Shown here one piece after another: positions 4,536 to 24,146 of a stretch of 64,000 nucleotides of DNA; the first letter of the stretch is position 1, and every line of letters begins with the position of its first letter. The stretch lies in the NCBI RefSeq assembly GCF_000337595.1, contig NZ_AOIL01000018.1:1-64000 (forward strand), read 5' to 3'. Below the pieces are notes generated by a model, which saw only the letters and a program-made list of their open reading frames with translations, was not told the DNA's origin and ran no database searches. A program made the translations under genes and the position numbers. Source of the DNA: Natrialba taiwanensis DSM 12281 (GTDB lineage: Archaea; Halobacteriota; Halobacteria; Halobacteriales; Natrialbaceae).

Positions 4536-5324
4536 ATGCACCAGTCGAACCCGACCGACGATGTCGTTCGGACGGTCATTCGCCGAACGGAGCTACTCGC
4601 GGCGCTCGCCGACCAGCCACAGTACAAACGCGACCTCGTCGAAGCGCTCGCGTGCTCCCGTTCGACGATCGACCGTGCGATTCGTGAACTCGAGTCCCTC
4701 GAGTTCATCGCGCGGACGGAGGCGGGGTATCAGTTGACGGCGGGGGGACGACTGGCACTGTCGGAGTATCGACGGGTGGAGCAGGCGTTTACGGCGATCG
4801 AGGAGAGTGGGAGTTTGCTGCGGCACGTGCCGGCAGGAGCACCGCTGTCGACGACGTTGCTGGACGATGCACGGACGTACGAGGTGAAGCCACATGCGCC
4901 GATCGAGCCGCTTCAGGAACTGGTTTCGCGCTTCGAGACGGCGACTCGGGTTCGAGGGTTTGCTGCGGCGGAGCGGATTCCGACGACGCGGATGCGCTTG
5001 TACGAGCGAACTGTCGAAGAGGATCTCACTGTTGAGGCGGTTTTCACCGAGGATCTCGCGGAGTTTCTTTTCGCGGAGTATCCAGAGCAGGTGCGCAGTT
5101 CTGCGACAGAGGGGGCGTTCGACATGTACGCGATCGAGTCGATACCGTACGAATTGACGCTTATCGAGCAATCGGATGTGCAGTACGTGTTCGTCTTCGT
5201 GTTGAACGAACGGACGGAGATAGAGGGAGTGATTAGCAACAACACGCAGGCGGCGTTCGAGTGGGGTGAGTCCGTCTTTCGGGAGGTGCGTTCGGCTGCG
5301 AGATCGGTGTCACCGCCGGAGTAA
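4536..5324 (+). CDS. Winged-helix transcriptional regulator, FilR1-middle-domain family
   Basis: 262 residues. A winged-helix DNA-binding domain covers about residues 10-75 (KRDLVEALACSRSTIDRAIREL is the helix-turn-helix). It is followed by the middle domain seen in methanogenesis regulator FilR1 and many haloarchaeal regulators, about residues 100-255, thought to be a ligand-sensing module. The gene stands alone, downstream of prf1 and convergent with the PRC-barrel gene, so its target is not evident. The phased GTGGACGAACC repeats just upstream may be its own operator. The 3' half of the gene has less of the strong third-position GC bias than its neighbours. The family is clear; ligand and regulon are unknown. 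Confidence 0.85.
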   Translation: MHQSNPTDDVVRTVIRRTELLAALADQPQYKRDLVEALACSRSTIDRAIRELESLEFIARTEAGYQLTAGGRLALSEYRRVEQAFTAIEESGSLLRHVPAGAPLSTTLLDDARTYEVKPHAPIEPLQELVSRFETATRVRGFAAAERIPTTRMRLYERTVEEDLTVEAVFTEDLAEFLFAEYPEQVRSSATEGAFDMYAIESIPYELTLIEQSDVQYVFVFVLNERTEIEGVISNNTQAAFEWGESVFREVRSAARSVSPPE

Positions 5325-5365
5325 CGGCGGCCGACTGATGTCGGTCAGTAGTCGACAGCACACGC

Positions 5366-5617
5366 TCAAAGCGTCCCGCGGAGTCGAACGGCGTCGTCGG
5401 TGATCTCCTCGATGCTGCCCTCGTCGAGCGGGTGGGCGCTCTCGGTTATATCGCCCCAGCCGAGTTTCGACTTGATCGTTTTCGTGATCGTTGGCTCGGG
5501 ATCGACGTAGCCGCGCCCGTCCTCGACGGCGACGATCCGGCCGACTTCCGTCCCGTCGATATTCAAGACTCGTTTTCCCTTGTCGGCGGCCGTGAGCGTG
5601 TGAGCGTCCTGAGTCAT
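5366..5617 (-). CDS. PRC-barrel-like small protein
   Basis: 83 residues from the ATG at 5617 (MTQDAHTLTAADKGKRV). The frame is open further to a GTG at 5680, but those residues are Arg/Leu/Pro-rich and unlike the family. The sequence KGKRVLNIDGTEVGRIVAVEDGRGYV is the small beta-barrel pattern of PRC-barrel domains, here followed by a helical tail (EGSIEEITDDAVRLRG). Haloarchaea carry many stand-alone PRC-barrel proteins. They are soluble and probably protein- or RNA-associated, but the role is not established. Convergent with the upstream regulator gene. Confidence 0.8.
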   Translation of the reverse strand: MTQDAHTLTAADKGKRVLNIDGTEVGRIVAVEDGRGYVDPEPTITKTIKSKLGWGDITESAHPLDEGSIEEITDDAVRLRGTL

Positions 5618-5944
5618 AGCAGTGAGCGGTAGAGTGCCGGGTCGGGGCATCAGCAGCGCCTTCCGCGAGTGATAGCGCACTGTCGCCCCCGCGTTCGCGT
5701 CCCATCACCACGGAAGAACACGAGGACAATAAATCGCACAAACCGTCATGCTGGCCCACTGAACCGTTATACTGCAACGCGACAGTAAGTAGTGATTACC
5801 GGACAGGGCCTGGCATGTACCCACCTCCTACGCTCGCTCGCCGTCGAGCGAATCGTTCGGTTGCGATGGTAATCCGTTTCTTCTACCGTCGCTGTGAGCA
5901 CAACGGAAGCGTTATGGCGCTAGTCCCGTATTACTATCCGATCG
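5618..5944. other. Intergenic region, divergent promoters
   Basis: 327 bases between the divergent PRC-barrel and TraB-like genes. Open frames here are Arg-rich shadows. The AT-rich segment 5765-5795 (GTTATACTGCAACG, AGTAAGTAGTGATTACC) and a CCGGACAG half-site near 5800, resembling half of the minD palindrome, are the only notable features. No RNA gene is recognised. Confidence 0.5.
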
Positions 5945-6841
5945 ATGGACGAGTCTCCGTTTCGCCCCGAATCGGTCGACGACCCGCGGATTACCGGGCA
6001 ATTCTGCCGGCGCGTCTCCGGTCCAACCGGCGACTGCTACCTCCTCGGCGTCGTTCACGACCACCCCGCGAGTATCAACCGCGTCATGCGCGTTGCCGAC
6101 GCGGTCGACCCCGCCGTGCTCGCACTCGAACTCCCACCGGCAGCCCTCCCGCTGTACCGCGTCTACGCCCGCGACGGCGACTCGAGTGCGTCCGCTACGC
6201 GTACCGTGCCCGCGACGGATACCGATCCCGACCGCTCGAGCGACACGGCGCAATCTCCGCCACCGACGCACCCGACGCACACCCCACCAGCACACGGCGG
6301 CGAAATGAGCGCCGCGATCTCCGCCACCGACGCTGAACTCGTCGGAATCGACGCCCCGAACTGGTCGTTCTTGCGGCGACTCGTGACGCGTCTCGTCGCT
6401 GACCGCGTCTCGGCTGGAACGGCGCGTCGCCTCCTTTCGAGCCTCGGTGGGGCGACGCGAGATGCACTGCGCTGTCGCATCGCGGCGACGCTGACACACG
6501 CCACCTCGATGACGATCACGCGAGGCGACCCGATCGAGTACGACTGCGACTTCGATGACCCGCCGGAAACGCAGGCTGCTCACGAGCGCGCTCACGTTGC
6601 AAGCGTCCAGGCACTCCTCGGAAGCGTGCAGACGGACGATAGCGCGCTCGCCTACCGAGACGAGACCCGCGAGCGCTGTATGATCGACCGACTGGCCGAA
6701 ATCCGCGCGGAGAACGACGGCACTGTCCTCGCTATCGTCGGTATCGACCACCTCGAAACGCTGGCTACTGCGCTCTCGGCCGACGAGATGGCGACTACCG
6801 AGACGAGCTACCACACCGACTCGTCAACGCCATCACCGTAA
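5945..6841 (+). CDS. TraB/PrgY-like domain protein
   Basis: 298 residues. The N-terminal block YLLGVVHDHPASINRVMR with the following ALELPPAALPLY resembles the GTAH...E pattern of TraB/PrgY/GumN-like proteins. The C-terminal LAIVGIDHLETLA matches the conserved VVGxxH element of that fold. Between them lies a low-complexity insert rich in Thr, Asp and Pro (about residues 78-120) that is probably disordered. Unlike the archaeal PrgY homologues with C-terminal membrane helices, no transmembrane segment is seen, so the protein looks soluble. TraB-fold proteins include putative metalloproteases, but activity is unproven. Monocistronic. Confidence 0.65.
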   Translation: MDESPFRPESVDDPRITGQFCRRVSGPTGDCYLLGVVHDHPASINRVMRVADAVDPAVLALELPPAALPLYRVYARDGDSSASATRTVPATDTDPDRSSDTAQSPPPTHPTHTPPAHGGEMSAAISATDAELVGIDAPNWSFLRRLVTRLVADRVSAGTARRLLSSLGGATRDALRCRIAATLTHATSMTITRGDPIEYDCDFDDPPETQAAHERAHVASVQALLGSVQTDDSALAYRDETRERCMIDRLAEIRAENDGTVLAIVGIDHLETLATALSADEMATTETSYHTDSSTPSP

Positions 6842-6877
6842 TCACGTCGCTTCTGACCGTAATTACGCTCGCTTCTA
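6835..6877 (+). repeat. Imperfect tandem direct repeat at the TraB-like stop
   Basis: Two near-identical units, ACCGTAATCACGTCGCTTCTG (21 bases, spanning the stop codon) and a 22-base copy starting ACCGTAATTACGCTCGC, lie head to tail. The second copy is wholly non-coding. This is most simply a slippage duplication of the gene's end; a role in 3' end formation is conceivable. Confidence 0.5.
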
Positions 6878-6926
6878 ACCGAGTCCAGCCATCCCGACGA
6901 CTGTCCGTGCCCGCAGCGTCCACGCG

Positions 6927-7268
6927 TTACCGCCGTAACGTCGTCACACAGTTCCAGCAGTACGTATACGTCTGATCAGCTACGTTCTGTGCCCCACAGT
7001 GGGGACACCGCATCGTCTCCCCGTCGAGTTCGCGATCCCTGTTGCTGGCCGATGGGTCGCCGGCATCGCTGGCGTCTCCAGAATCATCAGTGTTCCCTGG
7101 GTACCGATCGGTGTGGCGCGAGGCGTGCGAGGGGCCGCGATTGGGATCGGCAAACGAAGGTGACCTCGCCTCGTCACCGTCTGCACGGCGCACGTAGACG
7201 TAGTACAATAGCAGATGGAGGAGGGCAAACACGATCACGTATCCGATGAGCCAGCCCCAGCGTTCCAT
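6927..7268 (-). CDS. Membrane-anchored zinc-ribbon protein
   Basis: 113 residues from the ATG at 7268 (MERWGWLIGYVIVF); an in-frame upstream start at 7289 is less likely. One transmembrane helix (about residues 6-27) is followed by a polar, Asp/Ser-rich linker and a C-terminal zinc ribbon with two CxxC pairs (RCPHCGAQN and YCWNCVTTLR). This anchor-linker-ribbon layout recurs in small haloarchaeal proteins of unknown function. The ribbon most likely faces the cytoplasm. It is downstream of and co-directional with the acyltransferase gene (100-base gap), so the two may be co-transcribed. Confidence 0.75.
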   Translation of the reverse strand: MERWGWLIGYVIVFALLHLLLYYVYVRRADGDEARSPSFADPNRGPSHASRHTDRYPGNTDDSGDASDAGDPSASNRDRELDGETMRCPHCGAQNVADQTYTYCWNCVTTLRR

Positions 7269-21039: not shown

Positions 21040-21248
21040 GGGTGTGTGAAAGACAGGCACAGTCTTAAATTGTGGGGTCGCTGAAGACGCTGCCGATATC
21101 TTGGGACTATAACTCACACGTACATACACACCCCTGCTCGAACCACTTCCGGAGATGCACTGACGGACACTACGAGAACGAGACAGCGACAGCGTACTCA
21201 CTCCGTCCGACCCGCGAACTTTTCCACCTCTCGCCCGAACACTCGACT

Positions 21249-22085
21249 ATGAGCGACCTGCGTCTGGATGCCACCCAACTCGATCGCTACTCGCGACACG
21301 TGATCATGGACGAAATCGGTCCCGAGGGCCAACAGCGCCTGCTCGAAGGCAGTATCCTCGTCGTCGGCGCAGGCGGTCTCGGTGCCCCGGCGATCCAGTA
21401 CCTCGCAGCCGCAGGCGTCGGCCGCCTCGGCATCGTCGACGACGACATCGTCGAACGATCGAACCTCCAGCGCCAGATCGTCCACCGCGACGAGGATGTC
21501 GGCCGCCCGAAAGTCGACAGCGCCGCCGACTACGTCGCCGCACTCAACCCTGACATCGACATCGAAACCCACGAAACGCGTCTGACCGCGGCAAACGTGA
21601 CTGAACTCGTCGCCGACTACGATCTCGTCCTCGATGCGAGCGACAACTTCGCGACGCGCTATCTGCTTAACGACCACTGCGTACTCACCGAAACGCCGCT
21701 CTGTCACGGTGCGATCTACCGATTCGAGGGACAAGTGACGACGTTTACGAACGAACGCAGCGGCGACGACGACCCACCGTGTTACCGGTGTATCTTCCCC
21801 GAGGCACCCGAACCCGGAACCGTTCCCGACTGTGCGACCACCGGCGTCCTCGGGGTGCTCCCCGGAACCGTCGGTTGCATCCAGGCGACCGAAGCCGTCA
21901 AGTACCTGCTCGGGAAGGGAGACCTCCTCGAAGGCCGTCTCCTCCTCTACGATGCGATGGACATGACCTTCGAGACGGTGGACGTGCTATCGAATCCATC
22001 CTGTCCCGTCTGCGGCGACGATCCCGAGATCGAATCCGTCGAAGACGTCTCCTACGACGGAACCTGTACGATCTCGGCCGACTGA
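21249..22085 (+). CDS. ubaA: E1-like adenylyltransferase UbaA/MoeB/ThiF
   Basis: 278 residues. It adenylates the C-terminal Gly of small archaeal modifier/sulfur-carrier proteins (SAMPs). In Haloferax, UbaA drives protein sampylation and also sulfur transfer for molybdopterin and tRNA thiolation. Seen here: N-terminal helix (LDRYSRHVIMDEIGPEGQQ), Rossmann GxGxxG as VVGAGGLGAPAIQYLAAAG, the adenylation Arg/Asp region (DDDIVERSNLQRQ, DASDNFATR), two zinc-binding CxxC pairs (CYRC and CPVC), and the likely catalytic Cys in PDCATTGVLGVLPG. The start ATG at 21249 gives MSDLRLDATQL; the longer frame from 21072 is not family-like. Monocistronic. Confidence 0.93.
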   Translation: MSDLRLDATQLDRYSRHVIMDEIGPEGQQRLLEGSILVVGAGGLGAPAIQYLAAAGVGRLGIVDDDIVERSNLQRQIVHRDEDVGRPKVDSAADYVAALNPDIDIETHETRLTAANVTELVADYDLVLDASDNFATRYLLNDHCVLTETPLCHGAIYRFEGQVTTFTNERSGDDDPPCYRCIFPEAPEPGTVPDCATTGVLGVLPGTVGCIQATEAVKYLLGKGDLLEGRLLLYDAMDMTFETVDVLSNPSCPVCGDDPEIESVEDVSYDGTCTISAD

Positions 22086-22142: not shown

Positions 22143-23147
22143 TCATGCGGTCACAGCATCGCGCACCTCTCCGACACCGACGAGGGCGATGCAGGAGACG
22201 AACGCGGTCGTCCCGAGTTTGCCGCCCGCACCGGCGACCGCCGGCATCACCGCGAGATAGACGAGTCCACACAGTCCGCCGGCAACCCCGACGTGACCCG
22301 CCGTCGCCAGCCGCTCCGTACTCGACATGCCGACGAAAGAGGCACAGAACGCGACGGTCGCAAGCGTCGTCCCGAGTTCAGCGAGCGCGAGCGGGAACGC
22401 GATTCCGGCGACGGTGCCCACGAGCGCGGAGCCGACGACTGTTCCCAGTTCGAGGTGGAGACTCAGGACGACGGTCGCGACGGCGGCGACGGCCGCGACC
22501 GGAACGACGATCGGAACAAGATCCCACGCGGGCGAGCTCGTCGCGCCGTATTCGAGACCCAGACACGCGACCGTTGTGATGCAGCCGAAGAGGGCGATCG
22601 TGCCGAGTTTGCCGCCGAAGCCCCCGAAGGACTCCGCCGTCGCCACGAACGCGAGGCCGGCAAGCAGGCCGGCGACCGCGACGAATTCGGGGCCGGGAAA
22701 CACCGCCGGCGAGGCCATGCCGACGAACGAACCGCAGTAGAGCGGGACCGCGACCCGCGGGAGGGCGAGGCCGGCGGCCAGTCCGACCAGCGCGGACGCA
22801 AGTACCGGCCCGAGTTCAGCGCCGACGCTCGCACCGTAGGTGACGAGGGCACCGACGGTGACTGCGATCACGTCGTTGCCGTCCGTTCGGTCGAAACCGG
22901 CGGTATCGAGAGCGAGCTCATCGACGACGCGATCGCGTTCCGCGGCGGCCGCGACGGTCCCGGTGAGGGTGAGCGCGATCCCCGTCTGTACGCTGAGGCT
23001 TTCCGCGGAGAGACTAGGAAGACCGGCGACGGCGCTGGCGAGCAACGTGGCGGGCGTCAGGAGAAGCGCGACGTAGCCTGCGAACTGGATCGGACGATAT
23101 ATAGACGCGAATTCGGGTGCGGGCACGGACTCTGACACACGCCCCAC
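22143..23147 (-). CDS. Polytopic membrane protein with internal duplication, family not recognised
   Basis: 334 residues, about ten hydrophobic segments. Two halves repeat the same order of motifs. First half: ELGPVLASALVGLAAGLALP (111-130), CGSFVGMAS (138-146), GGFGGKLGTIALFGCI (175-190). Second half: ELGTVVGSALVGTVAGIAFP (233-252), CASFVGMSS (268-276), GAGGKLGTTAFVSCI (306-320). Pseudo-twofold membrane repeats are typical of transporters, and the Gly-Lys-Leu-Gly and Ser-Phe-Val-Gly-Met turns would sit at matching places in each half. No family name can be given from the motifs. The gene is alone between ubaA (convergent) and an SDR gene (same strand, 54 bases upstream). Confidence 0.75.
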   Translation of the reverse strand: MGRVSESVPAPEFASIYRPIQFAGYVALLLTPATLLASAVAGLPSLSAESLSVQTGIALTLTGTVAAAAERDRVVDELALDTAGFDRTDGNDVIAVTVGALVTYGASVGAELGPVLASALVGLAAGLALPRVAVPLYCGSFVGMASPAVFPGPEFVAVAGLLAGLAFVATAESFGGFGGKLGTIALFGCITTVACLGLEYGATSSPAWDLVPIVVPVAAVAAVATVVLSLHLELGTVVGSALVGTVAGIAFPLALAELGTTLATVAFCASFVGMSSTERLATAGHVGVAGGLCGLVYLAVMPAVAGAGGKLGTTAFVSCIALVGVGEVRDAVTA

Positions 23148-23201: not shown

Positions 23202-24029
23202 CTAGCTGCGTAACAACCCCCCGTCGACCGGCACGGCAGCCCCGGTAACGAAACCCGCGCGCGAACTCGCGAGGAACGCAACCACGTCGCCGAGTTCAGT
23301 TGGCTCGCCGAGTCGCTCCATCGGTACGTCGCGGTCGAGTGCAGTGGTGTCTACCTCGGTATCGGTGTCGGTATCGGTATCAGTGCCGGCGTCGGCCTCG
23401 ACCTCACCCTCGGCAGTATCCCTACCGCTGACAGCAGCACCAGGGACACCGTCACGAGACGTTTCGAACCGCCCCGGCAGAACCGCGTTCGCGCGGATCG
23501 CCGGCGCGAATTCGCGGGCGAGCGTCTTCACGAGACCGATGACGGCCCGTCGGACCGAGTTCGACAGTACCAGTCCATCGCCAACCTCACGAACGGTGTG
23601 TGCGGTGAGACAGGTGATCGAACTGTTCGTCCCATCGAGCAGGTGCGAATGCGCCGCCTCGACCGTCCAGACGACGCTCATCACGAGTAGGTCGTAGGCC
23701 CGGTACCAGTCCTGTTCGTCCGTTTCGAGAAACGTTGTCCGCGGCGGCCAGCCGGCATCGGTGACGAGGTGGTCCAGCGAGCCGAACTCGTCGGCGGTCC
23801 GACTCACGAGTCGCGAGATCGCGTCGGGGTCCGTGAGGTCGGCGTCGAGTGCGAGAACGTCGCCGGCTCCCGTGACGTCGAGTTCATCGCGTGCCTCCGC
23901 GAGGCGATCCGCGTCTGGGCCGCAGATAGTGACGTTCGCGCCCTCCCCAGCCAGTGACCTGGCGCTCGCGAAGCCGAGACTGCTGGCGGTAGTGACCAGT
24001 GCCGTGTCATCGGCCAAATCGAGGTCCAT
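23202..24029 (-). CDS. Short-chain dehydrogenase/reductase with atypical active site
   Basis: 275 residues from the ATG at 24029; a TTG two codons earlier is less likely. Rossmann-fold SDR: nucleotide loop TTASSLGFASARSL replaces TGxxxGIG, and the NNAG element reads TDAGWPP. The usual YxxxK catalytic pair is replaced at LVLSNSVRRAVIGLVKTLA, where Tyr is absent and Arg takes the Lys place. This SNSxR variant recurs in a subgroup annotated as 3-oxoacyl-ACP reductase-like, so it may use different chemistry. The C-terminal MERLGEPTELGDVVAFLAS and VDGG are standard. A TDTDTDTDTEVD insert (about residue 218) comes from a hexanucleotide repeat and is probably a disordered loop. Confidence 0.88.
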   Translation of the reverse strand: MDLDLADDTALVTTASSLGFASARSLAGEGANVTICGPDADRLAEARDELDVTGAGDVLALDADLTDPDAISRLVSRTADEFGSLDHLVTDAGWPPRTTFLETDEQDWYRAYDLLVMSVVWTVEAAHSHLLDGTNSSITCLTAHTVREVGDGLVLSNSVRRAVIGLVKTLAREFAPAIRANAVLPGRFETSRDGVPGAAVSGRDTAEGEVEADAGTDTDTDTDTEVDTTALDRDVPMERLGEPTELGDVVAFLASSRAGFVTGAAVPVDGGLLRS

Positions 24030-24146
24030 AGCCAAGCGACGACGCGGAGAACCAAATTGATCGGGGGCTGCCGGCGTCGAATCTCATGTTCCCGTTCTCA
24101 CCGTTTGGCCTCATCCCCGGCCGTTCGGCACCGCTCGTCGCGGTAC

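Follow-up and report, generated by a model that had tools for sequence, protein, structure and literature searches.

Within the window, that is, the whole stretch of 64,000 nucleotides from Natrialba taiwanensis that was analysed, one gene encodes a membrane protein whose two halves descend from one ancestor by duplication and which belongs to a family sharing this architecture. Our leading reading, tentative and held at slightly under even confidence, is that of an inverted-repeat channel or carrier of five plus five helices, arranged similarly to urea and ammonium channels and most likely serving formate or formic acid. The genes and protein features concerned are collected in Table 1.

Table 1 Genes, repeats and motifs of the membrane protein locus, in coordinates of the window
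Feature	Position	Strand	Remarks
Membrane-protein ORF	22143..23147	-	334 aa plus stop, GTG start; frames of relatives open over equal length
SDR-family oxidoreductase	23202..24035	-	54 bp upstream, same direction; Pfam adh_short
UbaA, SAMP-activating E1 (MoeB-like)	21072..22085	+	convergent; NCBIfam NF047750, 488 bits (cut-off 450)
N-terminal two-helix extension, residues 14-80	22908..23108	-	AlphaFold2 helices 14-41, 50-80; poorly conserved
Repeat 1, residues 87-196	22560..22889	-	helices 87-109, 114-128, 133-142, 153-169, 180-196
Repeat 2, residues 208-333	22149..22526	-	helices 208-231, 236-254, 259-270, 283-300, 310-333
Motif C138-GSFVG-M144, repeat 1	22716..22736	-	end of short helix; near-invariant
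Motif G176-FGGKL-G182, repeat 1	22602..22622	-	K180 starts last helix of repeat
Motif C268-ASFVG-M274, repeat 2	22326..22346	-	conserved among relatives
Motif G306-AGGKL-G312, repeat 2	22212..22232	-	K310 starts last helix

Two homologous halves in an unnamed protein family

The family is represented by a single copy in the N. taiwanensis genome; a plus-strand ORF at 22293-23135 lies antisense to the gene. A sequence-only reading had pointed to three motifs recurring in the same order in both halves. In repeats 1 and 2, respectively, these read ELGPVLASALVGLAAGLALP and ELGTVVGSALVGTVAGIAFP for the first pair, CGSFVGMAS and CASFVGMSS for the second and GFGGKLGTIALFGCI and GAGGKLGTTAFVSCI for the third. 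The repeat was borne out by two comparisons: Smith-Waterman alignment of residues 97-193 with residues 219-323 gave a score of 175 versus 46 +/- 8 (maximum 83) for 2000 shuffles (p ~2e-9), and hhalign, given one profile per half derived from 55 relatives, matched the two over 106 columns with a probability of 99.9 and an E value of 1.4e-34. Within single family members, the profiles of the N- and C-terminal halves each recognize the opposite half, mostly with ~45-90 bits. Among 44 relatives, the invariant columns are V115, C138, G139, F141-M144, G176, G178-K180 and G182 in repeat 1 and V237, F271, G273, M274, G306 and G308-G312 in repeat 2. The places match between the repeats, and nearly all invariant residues of the 44 aligned members lie inside the paired motifs. 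This conservation fits the earlier idea that the Gly-Lys-Leu-Gly turns may form a symmetric site.

Neither the protein alone, nor its alignment, nor the 44 members scanned matched any model in Pfam, NCBIfam or the PDB sequence collection, and the protein thus remains as unrecognized as it had seemed from its sequence. PDB sequence matches at E 0.4 (BLR5658 protein) were weak and judged to be due to chance. Our literature search found no paper naming the family or an alternative formate channel. The family was detected in 76 of 292 haloarchaeal genomes, about a quarter. In a scan of GTDB genomes, Natrialbaceae, Halorubrum, Halorientalis and Haloarcula were among the archaeal carriers; on the bacterial side the scan detected it in Atribacteria, Bacillota, Chloroflexota, Spirochaetes, Izimaplasma and Thermotogae. 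One Bacillota contig (L086) bears two full-length copies in tandem (4917-5933 and 6214-7221).

Predicted fold and split half-genes

AlphaFold2 modelled the whole protein with a pLDDT of 89.6 and its 251-residue core (residues 84-334) with a pLDDT of 96.8 and a pTM of 0.92. In the model, both repeats show an identical helix pattern, i.e., long, medium, short, medium, medium. The content of lysine plus arginine per loop in bacterial members is 0.04, 0.91, 0.13 and 0.70 in repeat 1 and 0.70, 0.04, 1.87 and 0.04 in repeat 2, followed by 3.1 at the C terminus. Equivalent loops therefore swap basic charge between the halves and, by the positive-inside rule, the repeats should be inverted relative to each other. 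The inverted pseudo-twofold symmetry suspected beforehand is thus supported by charge distribution, and the split half-genes described below show the same bias.

When the core model was submitted to Foldseek, the urea transporter 3k3f came first with a probability of 0.98 (next 0.15), the similarity as such being weak (E 0.05, TM 0.47). VIA-align likewise yielded weak scores, with Z values of up to 6.5 for urea transporters (163 residues, 4.8 A), 6.3 for Amt and 4.7 for RnfD. We read these values as reflecting a general arrangement shared with urea and ammonium channels rather than membership in either family. The expectation that a repeat-built membrane protein is probably a transporter or channel gains support from these being the nearest predicted folds. 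A likeness to CLC and MFS proteins, returned by Foldseek for the full-length model, was dismissed as noise (TM ~0.2, ~20 A rmsd), and a search of a viral structure library with the model returned no match.

The family also exists in two pieces. From 348 Bacillota genomes picked regardless of gene context, 25 carry the family, and 25 loci were fetched from 22 of these carriers. In 20 of the 25 loci (L141-L165) two adjacent ORFs are present, half 1 followed by half 2, with one repeat each and usually separated by 0-23 bp, as exemplified by the pair at 6230-6580 and 6586-7017 in locus L154. Internal stops in several Bacillota matches had been considered a sign of broken genes; ORF calling revealed them as boundaries between two intact half-genes. 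An identity with paired membrane proteins of the SpoVAC/SpoVAEb type was also considered and set aside; the half-genes match no Pfam model. The split halves carry an opposite charge bias, with 0.0 basic residues in loop c of half 1 versus 1.75 in half 2 and 0.65 versus 3.75 at the C termini. The first cysteine is not maintained in them, while a basic residue persists in the GGK motif. The position of K180, which does not vary among full-length members, holds K or R in 19 of the 20 half-1 proteins, and that of K310, invariant in A1 and conserved to at least 90% in A2, does so in all 20 half-2 proteins. Two genomes, G412 (L141:7691-8686; L142:6194-7192) and G373 (L164, L165), hold a fused copy beside fdhA together with a split pair beside fdhD.

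In a quick tree of the halves, calculated from few columns, the C-terminal halves join split half 2 (support 95), the N-terminal halves form one group (98) and so does each of the split halves. This fits a single duplication followed by one event of either fusion or fission; as the tree is unrooted, it leaves the order of these two states undecided. A single dual-topology gene of the family has not been found so far. With homologous halves, opposite charge bias and, in 20 of 25 loci, adjacent half-genes, the family falls into the class of inverted two-repeat proteins with split relatives. As half-gene pairs coexist in it with fused inverted repeats, it is a good case for studying the origin of such membrane proteins.

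Gene neighbourhoods

Seeking the substrate through gene neighbours, as the sequence-only reading had suggested, was fruitful in bacteria and Halorubrum and failed in the clade of N. taiwanensis itself. Neighbouring genes in loci such as L080, L085, L092 and L071 were checked against curated cut-offs. In Halorubrum xinjiangense (L092), a gene for the alpha subunit of formate dehydrogenase, above its cut-off, overlaps the family gene by 4 bp, and fdhA genes above cut-off lie near or adjoin it in a member of the Fermentithermobacillaceae (L080) and in Spirochaeta (L085). In Atribacteria (L071), a single run comprises nuoF, fdhA, a gene for an FNT channel (250 bits to TIGR00790), mobA, fdhD and the family gene, the one case of the family beside FocA. 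The order in Dethiosulfatibacter (L081) is formate-THF ligase, a cyclohydrolase-like gene, the family gene and folD. Genes for fdhD above cut-off adjoin the family in L125, L127 and L117, and in several Bacillota loci fdhD is only 17-24 bp away.

In the Bacillota sample, fdhA, fdhD or the gene for formate-THF ligase resides within ~6 kb of the family gene in 16 of the 25 carrier genomes (L081 counted) and in 18 of the 25 fetched loci; by a rough estimate derived from gene counts, the chance rate would be a few per cent. Several of these loci have fdhA or formate-THF ligase and no fdhD. Loci with formate genes nearby recur in scattered parts of the family tree, namely in the split clade, Halorubrum/Haloglomus, Atribacterota, Spirochaeta, Dethiosulfatibacter and other Bacillota. 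At the level of gene content, fdhD is more common in Bacillota carriers than in non-carriers (18/25 vs 159/323, p 0.037), and among fdhD-positive Bacillota the FNT channel is rarer in carriers (2/18 vs 64/159, p 0.019). In one Halorubrum-like genus, the family tracks an extra, second formate dehydrogenase (11/12 vs 2/20, p 7e-6). Note that these Fisher tests ignore common descent and that the p values are therefore indicative only.

Other contexts occur as well. In Izimaplasma (L095, L097, L099) the family gene follows the gene for glycine C-acetyltransferase, accompanied in one case by threonine dehydrogenase (L095:5581-7840), a setting with no link to formate at first glance, and elsewhere [FeFe] hydrogenase genes are found nearby. 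The neighbours in Anaerolineaceae (L079, L094, L100) are constant, with a seryl-tRNA-synthetase-like gene on one side and no formate genes. In one Bacillota genome (G526; L140:25-3504 / L154) the run is selD, fdhD, half 1, half 2, groES and groEL.

In the clade of N. taiwanensis, an SDR gene resides close upstream of the family gene (within 150 bp, same direction) in ~21 Natrialbaceae loci, and the two are probably co-transcribed. SDRs usually have a YxxxK signature. Inspection by eye revealed NSVRRAVIGLVK at the corresponding position of the SDR encoded in the window, and because of this replacement its catalytic tyrosine and lysine look lost. The gene ubaA faces the family gene in 25 Natrialbaceae loci. 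Formate genes were not found near the family gene in Natrialbaceae loci; the N. taiwanensis genome encodes two formate dehydrogenases elsewhere, along with two FNT-family proteins. Over the 292 haloarchaeal genomes, formate dehydrogenase and the family are not associated (51/76 vs 160/216, p 0.30, shared ancestry ignored), a test that lacks signal because 211 of the 292 genomes have formate dehydrogenase. FNT-family proteins occur in 58 of the 76 haloarchaeal carriers, and 25 of the 76 have no formate dehydrogenase above cut-off. Many haloarchaeal FNT-family matches reside in open frames of at least 600 residues (e.g., G000:C13:191136-191849), which suggests that these FNT domains may be fused to another domain.

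Proposed function and comparison with known systems

From the neighbours and the conserved residues, we infer that formate is the substrate. The channel or carrier would feed or drain cytoplasmic formate dehydrogenase and formate-THF ligase, in a direction and with a coupling that we surmise. The anion would be attracted to the basic residues with which the final helices of the two repeats begin (K180, K310), one of which should be located near each side of the membrane by pseudo-twofold symmetry, and would then cross between the short helices bearing the SFVGM motifs. The protein from N. taiwanensis shares ~35-45% identity with formate-linked members and keeps all motif residues including both lysines. 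As the Natrialbaceae lack formate genes nearby, formate as its substrate rests on homology with these distant, motif-keeping relatives, whose substrate it would share.

The presence of a known formate channel gene in the Atribacteria operon counts against formate. A transporter of the same fold may instead handle another solute tied to formate dehydrogenase, i.e., bicarbonate/CO2, molybdate/tungstate, sulfide or a selenium species, given that fdhD, mobA, moeA and selD are actual neighbours in many loci, that the conserved basic residues suit any small anion and that in Haloferax molybdenum cofactor activity depends on UbaA (PMC4443979), whose gene is the conserved neighbour in the clade of N. 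taiwanensis. We consider this unlikely, since in Dethiosulfatibacter the family gene is surrounded by folate C1 genes and formate-THF ligase with no fdhD, mobA or fdhA nearby, and the Bacillota loci with fdhA or formate-THF ligase and no fdhD point in the same direction. Equally improbable, and together with the former the strongest of the rival readings, is a switch of substrate in the haloarchaeal branch. Its members would then move a different small solute, one connected with the SDR encoded in the same transcript, with only the bacterial and Halorubrum branches serving formate. The directly upstream SDR in ~21 loci, the formate-free surroundings in Natrialbaceae and the missing association with formate dehydrogenase in haloarchaea would all agree with such a switch, yet all motif residues, including both lysines, are common to the window protein and the formate-linked members.

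A role other than transport appears distinctly improbable, be it as a factor in the assembly of formate dehydrogenase or hydrogenase or as a membrane subunit of these enzymes, for instance an anchor or electron-transfer subunit resembling RnfD/NqrB, which share the fold of urea and ammonium channels. RnfD is among the structural neighbours, a likeness of NqrB to urea and ammonium transporters has been reported (PMC10643135) and operons with NuoF-type and FeFe-hydrogenase genes exist; however, the invariant and near-invariant columns offer no histidine for haem, the family adjoins formate-THF ligase, and a third or so of the haloarchaeal carriers (25/76, as above) do without formate dehydrogenase above cut-off. 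A urea or ammonium channel, as the nearest folds might suggest, is very improbable indeed: no Pfam model matches, the conserved histidine pair is absent, urease or nitrogen genes were not noticed near the family in the loci read, and the conserved basic residues suit an anion.

With some more reserve than for the formate channel or carrier itself, we regard it as quite possible that the family represents formate channels of a second kind, independent of FNT and based on an inverted repeat like that of urea/ammonium channels, extant in split and fused form, and maybe the missing transporter of some formate users devoid of FNT. Residents of the Lost City have been reported to use formate and to have no known formate transporter, a matter left open (PMC9469722), as was the formate transporter of an acetogen without PF01226 (PMC10213532). 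Being widespread, unnamed and found beside formate dehydrogenase genes, the present family is a concrete candidate for this missing component.

FNT channels (FocA, PF01226) have an aquaporin-like fold and form pentamers. The present family probably shares their substrate and, in L071, their operon, and is on best reading of the sequences unrelated to them, being unmatched by PF01226 and TIGR00790 in the Pfam and NCBIfam scans. In its model the core has ten helices, five in each of the inverted repeats, with urea and ammonium channels as the nearest folds. FNT formate channels place a lysine in either vestibule by quasi-symmetry (PMC7557405), which the symmetric basic residues of the family may in principle resemble.

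Urea transporters (UT, SLC14; dvUT 3k3f), the best Foldseek match, are composed of an inverted pair of five-helix repeats that include short helices, an arrangement which the predicted core may share. They differ in that the family has no sequence-profile match to them, a core of only 251 residues, a conserved lysine pair and a formate gene context. Amt/Rh proteins share the inverted 5+5 helix arrangement, again without a profile match; the two conserved histidines of the Amt/Rh pore have no counterpart in the family, whose invariant and near-invariant columns contain no histidine. For RnfD/NqrB, the fold similarity is weak, no profile matches and rnf or nqr genes were not seen adjoining the family. 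Paired and fused forms within one family are already known from DUF606, for which, according to the summary in PMC3962082 of work by Lolkema (2008), paired genes of opposite orientation and a fused two-domain protein have been described. The present family, unnamed in the literature found, is unrelated to DUF606 and resembles it in combining split pairs and fused forms.
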